Translations under genes and position numbers: made by a program | DNA from: Desulfoglaeba alkanexedens ALDC | GTDB taxonomy: Bacteria; Desulfobacterota; Syntrophobacteria; Syntrophobacterales; DSM-9756 | Assembly (NCBI RefSeq): GCF_005377625.1 | Contig: NZ_CP040098.1 | Coordinates: 1,667,501 to 1,731,500, forward strand | DNA: 64,000 nucleotides | Direction: 5' to 3' | Shown here: positions 2,419-6,401 of the stretch, one piece after another | Layout: every line of letters begins with the position of its first letter | Position numbering within the stretch: position 1 is the stretch's first letter | Notes under the pieces: model-generated | Databases searched by the model: none | What the model saw: only the letters and a program-made list of their open reading frames with translations | Told to the model about the DNA's origin: nothing

Positions 2419-3129
2419 ATGACGACAGGACTCCGCATCTCCGGTCCGAGCGTGTGGCGCGTGGACCCGCGCAGGCCGGCACCCGAAGTGATTACAGTGG
2501 TTTCCGAACTTCTTCTGAACGGTGGGGTGGTGATCTATCCCACCGAAACGGTTTACGGCCTGGGAGTGTTCCCTGGAGACGCAGGGGCCGTGAAACGCGT
2601 TTACGCAATCAAGGGACGCCCCGTGAACAAGCCGCTTCCCATCGTAGCGTCGGATCTCCAGGCGGCCCGCCGAGCGGTCAGCCGATGGCCGAAGGCGGCG
2701 GAAAGGCTCTCTGACATGTTCTGGCCGGGCCCATTGACGCTCTTGGTGCCGGCGAGTCCGGGCCTTTCGCCGTTGATTCATGGAAGCACGGGAAAGATCG
2801 CACTGAGAGTGACGTCCCACCCGGTGGCTGCGAAACTTGCGGCCGCGTGCGGCGGCCTTCTTGTTGCGACCAGCGCCAACCTGTCGGGCGATCCGCCCTG
2901 CACGGATCCGTCCCTTCTTTCAGAAGCCCTCCTTTCGCGCGTGGACGGCGTGGTGGATGCCGGGCTGGCGACGGAAAGGCCTTCGACCGTGGTGGAAGTT
3001 CTGGATGAAGTGCCCTGGATCCGCCTCCTCCGACAAGGCGCTGTGCCATGGTCGGTCGTCCGGCGGCGGGTGGAGCAGGAGTTCGGGCCGGTGACGGTCG
3101 GCTCCGGGCCGGGTGACGTTTCAATATGA
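2419..3129 (+). CDS. tsaC: L-threonylcarbamoyladenylate synthase (TsaC/YrdC/Sua5 family)
   Basis: This 236-residue protein carries the YrdC-fold signatures VVIYPTETVYGLGV near residue 37, YAIKGRP and KPLP in the ligand-binding region, FWPGPLTLL, and ATSANLSG near residue 155. The family makes threonylcarbamoyl-AMP from threonine, bicarbonate and ATP. That intermediate is used for the t6A37 modification of ANN-reading tRNAs. It lacks the C-terminal Sua5 domain, so it is a short TsaC-type enzyme with about 40 extra C-terminal residues. Its TGA at 3127-3129 overlaps the ATG at 3126 of the next gene (ATGA), suggesting translational coupling with the MurG-like gene. Confidence 0.9.
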   Translation: MTTGLRISGPSVWRVDPRRPAPEVITVVSELLLNGGVVIYPTETVYGLGVFPGDAGAVKRVYAIKGRPVNKPLPIVASDLQAARRAVSRWPKAAERLSDMFWPGPLTLLVPASPGLSPLIHGSTGKIALRVTSHPVAAKLAAACGGLLVATSANLSGDPPCTDPSLLSEALLSRVDGVVDAGLATERPSTVVEVLDEVPWIRLLRQGAVPWSVVRRRVEQEFGPVTVGSGPGDVSI

Positions 3130-5270
3130 GTGTCGTATTCGCTTTGACGTTGCTGCTCGCGGCCGTAGGCGTACTGCTGGCGGGACTTGCCCTGCGGTGG
3201 CGGAACATTGTCCGGCGCGAACCGAGGATTCTCCTGACAGGCGGCGGCACGGGGGGACATGTGAACCCTGCGCTGGCCATCGCCGAGGGCATCAAGGGCC
3301 GCGAACCCGACGCGCGGTTCCTCTATGTGGGCGTGCCTGGAAGGGCGGAGGAGGTCATCGTCCGGAAGGCCGGATATCCGCTGAAGCTGGTGAGCAGTCA
3401 GGGATTCCCCGGTTTCCGCCCTTCGTTGCTTCTGGCGGGCTTCGTGGTTCGACTTTCGTGGGGCGTGGTCCGCTCGCTGGGGATCCTTATGGGCTTCGCG
3501 CCCCGCTGGGTGATCGCAACCGGCGGCTACGTGAGCGCTCCCATTGTTCTGGCGGCGGTGATGCTTCGGGGCCTCCGGCTGGCGCCGGTCTGCATCTTCA
3601 TTCATGAACAAAACAGCGTTCCCGGGCAGCTGAACGCCGTTCTGGGCCGCTGGGCTGATCGGGTGTTTCTCACCTTTCCCCAGAGCCTGGCCCACTTTCC
3701 GGAAAACGGGGTGGTGGTGGGGTATCCCGTCCGCCATGCCATCACTGTGAAATCCCGTGAAGAAGCGCTGGCCGCCCTTCCGTTTGCCGTTCCGGAAGGC
3801 CGGCGGGTGATTTTCGTTTTCGGCGGCTCCCAGGGAGCTCGAACCATCAACCGGGCGCTGGTGGATGCCCTGAAGGATTTCATAGTGCATCGTGAGCGGC
3901 TGTTCATCATTCATGGCATGGGGCTCGGCGGTTCGGAAGATTACCAGCCGCGCCGGGATACGGAAGAACGCCTGAACGCGCTCTTTTCCGAAGGTGACAA
4001 GCGCCTGCTCGACACCTTCTATTACCGCCAGGATTACTTTCACAACATCGGCGACGTCTATGCGGTGAGTGACCTCATCGTGTGCCGGAGCGGTGCGGGG
4101 AGCCTGAACGAGATTTCCAGGTTGGGAAAGCCGGCCCTTCTCGTCCCCAAGGCGAATCTCCCGGGGGACCACCAGGTGATGAATGCCCGGGCCATGAAGC
4201 AGGCTGGAGCGGCCGAGGTGTTGTTCGAAGATACGGTGGTCGAAGGCGGGAAGGTTCTGGAGAAGCTCGAGGGCCCGCTGCTCGCGCGCCGCGTGCTGGA
4301 ACTGCTCGACGATCCCGGGCGCCTTACCGAAATGAGAAACAAGAGTCGTGGTTTCTTCCGGCGCCAGGCCGACGCGCGGATTTTGAGCGAGCTTTACCAG
4401 GATCACAGCTACGACAACGGGCTGGGGCCCGAGCCGGTGAATCTCAGTCCACTTCTCAGCAATCAACGGCTGCTTCGTCTTCTGGAACAGGAGTACCAAA
4501 AGAACCCCGGGGCCTACGATCCCCTGGCGGCGGTCGGAGACGCCGACGACCTGGTCTATTACCGGCACCGGGCGGCGGCGCTTCTCACCCGCGGCAGCTG
4601 GCAGGAACGCAACCTGGGCGTCAAGCTCGTCGGCCTCACCCACGACCGGCAGAAGGTCCCGGCGCTCTGCCACATGCTTCGAGACCGGACCCCGGTTTCA
4701 CCTCTGAAGCGCCTTTTGGGTGGCGACTTCGAACAGGTCGGCTTCATCCGGCGAAACATCGTCACCGCCTTCCGGGTCATGGGGGAATTCGGGCCGGCCG
4801 TAGAAGAAGCGGTGTTGCAGGCGCTGGAGGATCCCTATTACGAAGTGCGCGCCGAAGCGTGCCGCACCGCCGCCCATTTCGGAACGCGGCTTGCCGGCAA
4901 GGAACAGTGGCTGGAGGCGCTGCTGCAGCGGTTTCGGGACGATTGTTTCGAGGTGGCCATGGAAGCGGTGAAAGCGGTGGGTGAGATCGGTACCGACGGC
5001 CGAGCCCTGGAAGCGCTTCTGGAGTTGCACGAAAACTTCTTCTGGCAGATTCGGGACGCCGCCCTCATCGCCATCCGGAGGCTTCTGGAGCGGCGGGTGA
5101 TCCCGCCCTCGCAGGAAATCCTCGACCGGGTGGATCGGTTCAATCTGACGGCACCCGACTTCCGCCCGACCTTTTCGATCCGGGAGCATTATGGAGCCAT
5201 CCGGCAGGTTTGCGACGGGGCGAACAGAGGGCGACGGGCGCCGCGCGAAATGTCTCTGGGCTCTTTTTGA
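3126..5270 (+). CDS. MurG-like UDP-GlcNAc glycosyltransferase fused to C-terminal HEAT repeats
   Basis: The 714-residue protein has one N-terminal hydrophobic segment (about residues 3-23) and then a GT28 glycosyltransferase of the MurG type. It shows ILLTGGGTGGHVNPALAIA at 35-53, including the MurG catalytic-loop histidine. It also has FVFGGSQGA, CRSGAGSLNEI, and GDHQVMNA, matching the MurG acceptor/UDP-GlcNAc site. MurG normally ends near residue 355-360. Here a further 270 or so residues follow (about 440-700) as alpha-helical repeats, for example EEAVLQALEDPYYEVRAEA and RFRDDCFEVAMEAVKAVGEI, which look like HEAT repeats. It lies outside a dcw cluster, between tsaC and a MraY-like gene. 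It probably acts on a lipid-linked sugar at the inner membrane face. Whether it is the cell's only MurG or a paralogue cannot be seen here. Confidence 0.85.
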   Translation: MSVVFALTLLLAAVGVLLAGLALRWRNIVRREPRILLTGGGTGGHVNPALAIAEGIKGREPDARFLYVGVPGRAEEVIVRKAGYPLKLVSSQGFPGFRPSLLLAGFVVRLSWGVVRSLGILMGFAPRWVIATGGYVSAPIVLAAVMLRGLRLAPVCIFIHEQNSVPGQLNAVLGRWADRVFLTFPQSLAHFPENGVVVGYPVRHAITVKSREEALAALPFAVPEGRRVIFVFGGSQGARTINRALVDALKDFIVHRERLFIIHGMGLGGSEDYQPRRDTEERLNALFSEGDKRLLDTFYYRQDYFHNIGDVYAVSDLIVCRSGAGSLNEISRLGKPALLVPKANLPGDHQVMNARAMKQAGAAEVLFEDTVVEGGKVLEKLEGPLLARRVLELLDDPGRLTEMRNKSRGFFRRQADARILSELYQDHSYDNGLGPEPVNLSPLLSNQRLLRLLEQEYQKNPGAYDPLAAVGDADDLVYYRHRAAALLTRGSWQERNLGVKLVGLTHDRQKVPALCHMLRDRTPVSPLKRLLGGDFEQVGFIRRNIVTAFRVMGEFGPAVEEAVLQALEDPYYEVRAEACRTAAHFGTRLAGKEQWLEALLQRFRDDCFEVAMEAVKAVGEIGTDGRALEALLELHENFFWQIRDAALIAIRRLLERRVIPPSQEILDRVDRFNLTAPDFRPTFSIREHYGAIRQVCDGANRGRRAPREMSLGSF

Positions 5271-5291
5271 GATCGAGGTGGTCGCGCATCC

Positions 5292-6401
5292 ATGCTTTAT
5301 GAACTAGGAAATTTTCTCCTCAGACTTTCCGACGTTTTCTCATTCTGCCGACTCGTCAATTACCTGACCTTCCGGGCCATTCTGGCGGCGCTGACGGCGG
5401 TGGTGTTCGTTTTCATGTTCAGCCGCCCGTTCATTCGAACCATGCACCGCTTGCGTTTTCTGGACCAGTTCCGGGAGACCGGCATCCGGACGGCTCACGA
5501 CAAGAGCGGGACGCCCACCCTGGGCGGGATCCTCATCGTCGGCGGCGTGCTGAGTTCCATGCTGCTTTGGGGTAATTGGCGAAACCCCTTCCTCCTTTAC
5601 GCCCTAGCCGGCATGCTCTGGTACGGCGGCATGGGTTTCTGGGATGATTTTTCAAAGATCCGTCGGGGAAGCGGCAACCGGGGAATGTCGGAGCGGACGA
5701 AGCTGCTGCTGCAGGCGGTGTTCGGGTGCGCCTTCGCCTGGGGTTGGGTCGGTCCGTGGGCGCCGCTGAGCCGCGACCTGGCCGCCGGTCTCTACGTGCC
5801 CTTTTACAAGTACCCTGTCCTAACCCTTCACCCCTTGCTTTACGCCGCCTTCATCGTGGTTTTCGTCCTTTTCGTCTCCAATGCGGTGAACCTCACCGAC
5901 GGCCTGGACGGGCTGGCCATCACCCCTTCTCTTTTTGTGATGGGCGTACTGGGCATTTTCGCCTACGTGGAAGGAAACACCATCTATTCCGGATATCTAT
6001 TTTATCCGTATCTGAAGGGTGCCGGGGAACTCACCGTTTTCGGAGCCGCCTTCGTGGGAGCGGGACTGGGATTTCTCTGGTACAATGCCTACCCGGCCCA
6101 AATTTTCATGGGCGACACCGGTTCCTTGGCCATCGGGGGGGCCATGGCGGTGGTTTCGGTGCTGCTCAAGCAGGAGATGCTTTTCCCGATTCTGGGCGGG
6201 CTTTTCGTGGCGGAAGCGCTCTCCAGCCAGATCCAGGACAAAATCGGCGTCCGCTGGCTTGGGAGACGGATCTTCTATCGGGCGCCCCTCCATCACAGCC
6301 TGCAGCACCGCGGCATAGCCGAAACCAAGGTGGTGATCCGCCTCTGGATCATCTCGGGCATCCTGGCCCTGGTGGCCCTGGCCACCCTGAAGCTCAGGTA
6401 G
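5292..6401 (+). CDS. MraY-like polyprenyl-phosphate sugar-phosphate transferase
   Basis: This is a 369-residue integral membrane protein with about ten hydrophobic segments, the usual MraY size. MraY motifs are present: GTPTLGG (73-79), Asp118-Asp119 in GFWDDFSKI, NLTDGLDGLA with Asp203 and Asp206, and AQIFMGDTGSLA with Asp275. The C-terminal loop reads APLHHSLQ (331-338), so the third histidine of the usual HHH triplet is serine. The C-terminus (KVVIRLWIIS) is very MraY-like. The family transfers phospho-MurNAc-pentapeptide to undecaprenyl phosphate. Its partner here is the MurG-HEAT gene 21 bp upstream, not a dcw cluster. It is either the house-keeping enzyme in an unusual place or a paralogue for another glycan. 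Confidence 0.85.
   Translation: MLYELGNFLLRLSDVFSFCRLVNYLTFRAILAALTAVVFVFMFSRPFIRTMHRLRFLDQFRETGIRTAHDKSGTPTLGGILIVGGVLSSMLLWGNWRNPFLLYALAGMLWYGGMGFWDDFSKIRRGSGNRGMSERTKLLLQAVFGCAFAWGWVGPWAPLSRDLAAGLYVPFYKYPVLTLHPLLYAAFIVVFVLFVSNAVNLTDGLDGLAITPSLFVMGVLGIFAYVEGNTIYSGYLFYPYLKGAGELTVFGAAFVGAGLGFLWYNAYPAQIFMGDTGSLAIGGAMAVVSVLLKQEMLFPILGGLFVAEALSSQIQDKIGVRWLGRRIFYRAPLHHSLQHRGIAETKVVIRLWIISGILALVALATLKLR

Follow-up and report, generated by a model that had tools for sequence, protein, structure and literature searches.

A HEAT-bearing MurG paired with MraY outside the dcw cluster of Desulfoglaeba alkanexedens and its coupling to MurJ in relatives

The locus and its proteins

The window is a stretch of 64,000 nt from Desulfoglaeba alkanexedens ALDC (NZ_CP040098.1, positions 1,667,501–1,731,500 of the forward strand; GCF_005377625.1). 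Three genes follow each other on its plus strand: a tsaC-like gene for L-threonylcarbamoyladenylate synthase (2419..3129), included for context only; murG-HEAT (3126..5270) for a membrane-anchored MurG of 714 aa with a C-terminal HEAT domain; and mraY (5292..6401) for a phospho-N-acetylmuramoyl-pentapeptide-transferase of 369 aa. The stop of tsaC overlaps the start of murG-HEAT (ATGA, 3126–3129). Between the murG-HEAT stop and the mraY start lie 21 bp (5271–5291), the spacing given in an earlier note on this DNA. The same note described the tsaC-like gene as coupled to murG, which the stop/start overlap and the TIGR00057 score (157.7 bits, cut-off 123) bear out. It also called the gene an odd neighbour, which it is not, because it is kept upstream of murG-HEAT in 38 of 43 Syntrophobacteria loci. 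The convergent neighbour of the three genes is a ugd-like nucleotide-sugar dehydrogenase, as noted before, and is confined to a few relatives.

MurG-HEAT starts with a transmembrane (TM) helix (residues 2–31; 3129..3218), visible in the AlphaFold2 model and in the hydropathy and followed by RWR..RR. The MurG domain (residues 34–423; 3225..4394) matches both GT28 domains (PF03033 at residues 35–181, PF04101 at 228–376). Its motifs GGGTGGH, HEQN, GYPVR, GGSQGA, NEIS and DHQ..NA are intact and align to the MurG structures. The HEAT-repeat domain (residues 446–702; 4461..5231) contains a HEAT_2 match (PF13646, residues 561–650, E 7e-13, above the cut-off) and the signature GGDFxQVGFIRRN (residues 532–544; 4719..4757), which is conserved in two alignments. 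All these features lie on the plus strand.

The AlphaFold2 model (mean pLDDT 91.6, pTM 0.86) consists of the helix at residues 2–31, a MurG fold at 34–423 and an all-helical array at 446–702. The MurG crystal structures 3s2u and 1f0k ranked best in Foldseek, and a profile search of the PDB with the HEAT part matched alphaRep and PP2A-A HEAT chains. Tandem two-helix HEAT repeats were found by PF13646, in the model and in the PDB profile search. The Pfam matches and the model agree on a MurG with a C-terminal HEAT domain, and the structure prediction proposed in the earlier note as a check of this fusion upheld it.

The protein shares its fold and all signature motifs with MurG (GT28; TIGR01133, 1f0k, 3s2u). 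It differs from MurG in its N-terminal TM anchor, in the ~260-residue C-terminal HEAT domain and in its score, which stays below the equivalog cut-off of TIGR01133 (214 bits, cut-off 250).

The window MraY passed the equivalog cut-off of TIGR00445 (300 bits, cut-off 192) and aligned near full length with the MraY structures 8g01 and 4j72 in phmmer. It keeps NAVNLTDGLDGL, MGDTGS and the first two histidines of the HHH loop. In place of the canonical loop PxHHHxExxG it has PLHHSLQHRG (residues 332–341; 6285..6314, plus strand), meaning that HHH is replaced by HHS (H334, H335, S336), as first noted. Apart from this HHS/Q loop, the catalytic motifs of MurG-HEAT and MraY are intact.

The changed loop is typical of the MraYs linked to MurG-HEAT. 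Counted from motif strings, the third histidine was missing in all 73 readable module-linked MraYs (N, S, D, A, Q, G and others), and glutamate was replaced by glutamine in 65 of the 73, whereas canonical Desulfobacterota MraYs kept HHH and the glutamate in 27 of 27. The TIGR00445 scores of the MraYs formed two groups (284–300 and 372–456 bits). The motif PxHHHxExxG has been defined previously, with a proposed contribution of the HHH loop to the specificity for UDP-MurNAc-pentapeptide (PMC5039524). The loop change is therefore a testable enzyme difference. As it is clade-wide, the HHS loop is, judged by sequence, no sign of another substrate for the window MraY. That it is also a docking change is speculation.

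Three MraYs from MurG-HEAT loci titled Deltaproteobacteria/Myxococcales (L133:2505–3872, L141:2663–4030 and L142:3877–5244) are 455 aa long and carry ~90 additional residues between their halves (model breaks at 159/252).

Copy number, relocation and distribution

MraY and MurG make lipid I and lipid II, and their genes usually lie within the division/cell-wall (dcw) cluster. The genome (3,365,583 bp, one contig) was searched for further copies by protein family. PF00953 gave two matches, the window mraY and a WecA-like protein. PF04101 gave three matches, of which the window gene was the only MurG. These family searches gave no further mraY or murG anywhere on the single 3.37-Mb contig. Being the sole copy, MurG-HEAT would be the lipid II synthase.

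As a separate observation, L013:1827–3641 (G000:C1, ~776.3–778.1 kb) encodes 604 aa and combines a WecA-type polyprenyl-phosphate sugar transferase with a further region, which resembles the N-terminal part of EPS sugar transferases.

The dcw cluster is located at ~2.184–2.200 Mb, the window at 1.668–1.732 Mb; the location outside the cluster was thus correctly recognized from the start. The order of the cluster is mraZ-rsmH-(small ORF)-ftsI-murE-murF-murD-ftsW-murC-murB-ftsQ-ftsA-ftsZ. Absent from this otherwise complete cluster are mraY (slot between murF and murD) and murG (slot between ftsW and murC). At both junctions the reading frames overlap, murF into murD and ftsW into murC. Hence, the two genes are gone from their slots and not hidden in a gap. 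An assembly artefact was considered and ruled out by the single-contig genome, the overlapping dcw junctions and the repetition of the architecture in dozens of genomes.

The architecture is widespread. Of 60 relatives, 56 gave a match, and in almost every case one frame held both MurG and HEAT. When contigs were scanned with the HEAT alignment, 80 loci were obtained, which came from Syntrophobacteria (among them isolates of Desulfacinum, Desulfoferrobacter and Desulforhabdus), Acidobacteriota, Aminicenantes, Latescibacterota, Zixibacteria, Myxococcota and Planctomycetota. MraY was directly downstream of MurG-HEAT in 79 of the 80 loci, and the one exception lay at a contig end. The HEAT domain is kept across several phyla with invariant residues, including GGDFxQVGFIRRN. 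In phylum samples, strong-scoring matches to it in frames longer than 650 aa were counted in about 15 genomes out of 296 for Desulfobacterota and 23 out of 149 for Acidobacteriota. Metagenome-assembled genomes make up most of the relatives, and the presence calls depend on family cut-offs. A MurG-HEAT in the Desulfobacterota genome G080 (L251:5694–7868) has no MraY within ~5 kb, which is the one clear exception to the pairing.

None of the 22 genomes tested from several phyla had a full-length MurG other than MurG-HEAT, which failed the TIGR01133 cut-off in all 22. A MurG above this cut-off was present in 263 of the 296 Desulfobacterota genomes. In flanks of up to 8 kb, as far as the contigs reached, none of the 80 MurG-HEAT loci had dcw genes. 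As a positive control, 31 of 31 canonical Desulfobacterota MurGs were flanked by murC, mostly also by ftsW/murD.

The earlier note had suggested a phylogeny of both proteins, and each formed a clade of its own. MurG-HEAT was split from canonical MurG at 100/100 (43 vs 31 and 38 vs 16 rows), and module MraYs were split from canonical MraYs at 100/100 (39 vs 28 rows). As the root of the trees was not fixed and the canonical rows came from Desulfobacterota only, a single origin of the MurG-HEAT lineage is compatible with these sequence trees rather than proven.

Coupling to the flippase MurJ

The murJ of the window genome stands alone at 2.14 Mb, 0.47 Mb from murG-HEAT, and belongs to a different MurJ clade. 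In relatives, MurJ is fused to MurG-HEAT in two orders. Proteins of the order MurJ-MurG-HEAT (~1200–1230 aa) were found at 12 loci in two Syntrophobacteria families, some of them on complete chromosomes. As purD-purE-tsaC is still upstream in most, the locus corresponds to that of the window. The order also occurs beyond Syntrophobacteria (L241 and L244). The order MurG-MurJ-HEAT was found at L148, L238, L239, L240, L242 and L243. The distant fusions (L148 and L238–L244) come from Acidobacteriota and one Planctomycetota genome and have MraY directly downstream. The HEAT domain is always C-terminal, independent of the order. At other loci, a separate murJ adjoins MurG-HEAT.

The fused domain has the features of MurJ (TIGR01695; 7waw, 6cc4). 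It passed the cut-off of 235.6 bits for TIGR01695 (L111, 277.6 bits; L148, 283.2 bits) and matched MurJ structures (7waw in Foldseek; 6cc4 was also matched). Aligned to a solved MurJ, it keeps the conserved arginines both in the first helices and in the central motif, which are the functionally important ones. G042 and G046, each assembled as a single contig, have no PF03023 protein besides the fused MurJ. The AlphaFold2 model of the MurJ fusion had moderate overall confidence (pTM 0.58), and the placement of its domains is therefore unsure. No published description of MurJ-MurG or MurG-HEAT fusions was found in the open-access literature searched.

In the MurJ tree, the fused MurJs of both orders and a Latescibacterota neighbour gene formed one clade (100/99). 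The downstream neighbour in Acidobacteriota and the upstream neighbour in Myxococcota fell into other MurJ clades. MurJ was therefore tied to the module more than once.

The TM helix before MurG, which the earlier note had missed in the window, was present in 42 of 42 Syntrophobacteria MurG-HEAT proteins. In 12 of the 42, it is the end of the fused MurJ. It was absent in 17 of 17 Acidobacteriota/Aminicenantota MurG-HEAT proteins. When the window helix was compared with the last TM helix of MurJ, 7 of 440 control windows scored equal or higher. The window helix may be a relic of the last TM helix of MurJ, an idea only.

Some loci and genomes departed from this picture. MurJ gave no match in the MurG-HEAT genomes G355 and G361 and weak matches only in G352, G356 and G357. 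This apparent lack of a convincing MurJ may reflect another flippase or incomplete assemblies. In G055, the MurJ-MurG-HEAT gene appears to be split into two pieces 1.3 Mb apart (L060 and L061), one of which ends in a run of unknown residues. The split is probably an assembly or masking artefact.

Interpretation and significance

The locus is probably a lipid II module that has left the dcw cluster and represents a distinct type with a scaffold; it belongs to a divergent lineage spanning several phyla. The sequences establish the identity of the proteins, their sole copies, relocation, conservation and fusions; from these we infer scaffolding, a physical complex and the hand-over or channelling of lipids. 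As MurG-HEAT is fused to the lipid II flippase in other phyla, the last precursor steps are suggested to work as one machine. MraY would make lipid I, and the MurG domain, tethered by its TM helix, would add GlcNAc at the membrane. The HEAT domain with GGDFxQVGFIRRN would be a docking scaffold that holds MurG beside MraY (in relatives, beside MurJ too), so that lipid I and lipid II would be handed on locally. In relatives with MurJ in the same chain or gene group, this would give a combined synthesis-and-flipping module. We see about even chances that MraY, MurG and MurJ form a complex, organised by HEAT, in which one physical unit makes lipid I, converts it to lipid II and flips the latter. 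In the fuller form of the same reading, held with equal confidence, the complex would be encoded outside the dcw cluster in lineages of several phyla that have no other such machinery, and the change in the HHH loop would be part of docking or hand-over.

The earlier note had left the choice between a parallel lipid-linked sugar pathway and the sole lipid II machinery with a HEAT scaffold, and had asked whether a second mraY-murG pair exists. Some features would fit a pathway not serving peptidoglycan: MurG-HEAT is below the TIGR01133 cut-off, and MraY has lost the third histidine and the glutamate of PxHHHxE, a motif tied to UDP-MurNAc-pentapeptide specificity (PMC5039524). However, family searches found no other MraY or MurG in the genome, which has two empty dcw slots but contains murB-F, ftsW, ftsI and ftsZ; MurG-HEAT is likewise the sole MurG in 22 relatives, and its recurrent fusion partner is the lipid II flippase. 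The parallel pathway was rejected on the sole copies and is very improbable. The other option was supported, with the HEAT domain as a putative scaffold. Simple relocation of housekeeping genes, with HEAT as a passenger or for stability only, would agree with the intact MurG catalytic motifs and the one copy per genome. By the refuting condition set in the earlier note, the locus would be housekeeping synthesis that has moved, but the divergent multi-phylum clade and the recurrent MurJ coupling go beyond this account. It is unlikely as a full explanation, since HEAT residues are invariant across phyla (GGDFxQVGFIRRN among them), HEAT stays at the C-terminus in both of the domain orders in which MurJ joins, and the HHH loop of the linked MraYs is non-canonical throughout.

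HEAT arrays are general protein-docking scaffolds, and the HEAT role could be other than MraY/MurJ binding, with MreB or divisome proteins, MurF or oligomerisation as candidates. It is possible, if doubtful, that the domain links the module to a partner in the cytoskeleton or the divisome and so replaces the co-localisation normally given by the dcw operon. E. coli MurG is reported to form complexes with proteins of elongation and division (PMC2170320), which fits such a role. The genomic partners are, however, MraY and MurJ and not genes of the division cluster. This reading overlaps with the scaffolded lipid II module, and the confidences given here therefore do not add up to one.

The module resembles known systems only in part. 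It shares its MurG fold and sole genomic copy with MurG, and the MGDTGS motif and first two histidines with MraY (TIGR00445; 4j72, 8g01), but differs from both in its separate clades and, for MurG, in lying outside dcw. In Bordetella pertussis, MurE and MurF are fused and MurG was proposed as a scaffold of precursor synthesis (PMC6420597). Fused Mur enzymes and MurG as a proposed scaffold are common to both cases, but the Bordetella fusion joins cytoplasmic ligases, whereas here MurG is joined to HEAT and, in relatives, to a flippase. MglA of Kitasatospora/Streptomyces is an alternative MurG outside dcw which can make lipid II (PMC8092295). It is likewise a distant MurG homologue outside the cluster, but an additional copy beside the dcw murG, while MurG-HEAT is the only MurG.

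An affinity gradient MraY-MurG-MurJ was proposed for the passage of lipid I and II (PMC9046198), and a shared chain would add proximity to it. The finding bears on how lipid II gets from MurG to MurJ, by hand-over in a complex or along the affinity gradient. Here, flippase and synthase are joined in one natural chain, in two domain orders and in several phyla. The MurJ/MurG-HEAT chains offer cryo-EM and flipping assays a target made of one polypeptide, and the HEAT domain can be removed as a defined piece. A standard annotation cut-off (TIGR01133) misses a whole MurG clade, and mraY and murG can leave the dcw cluster together.
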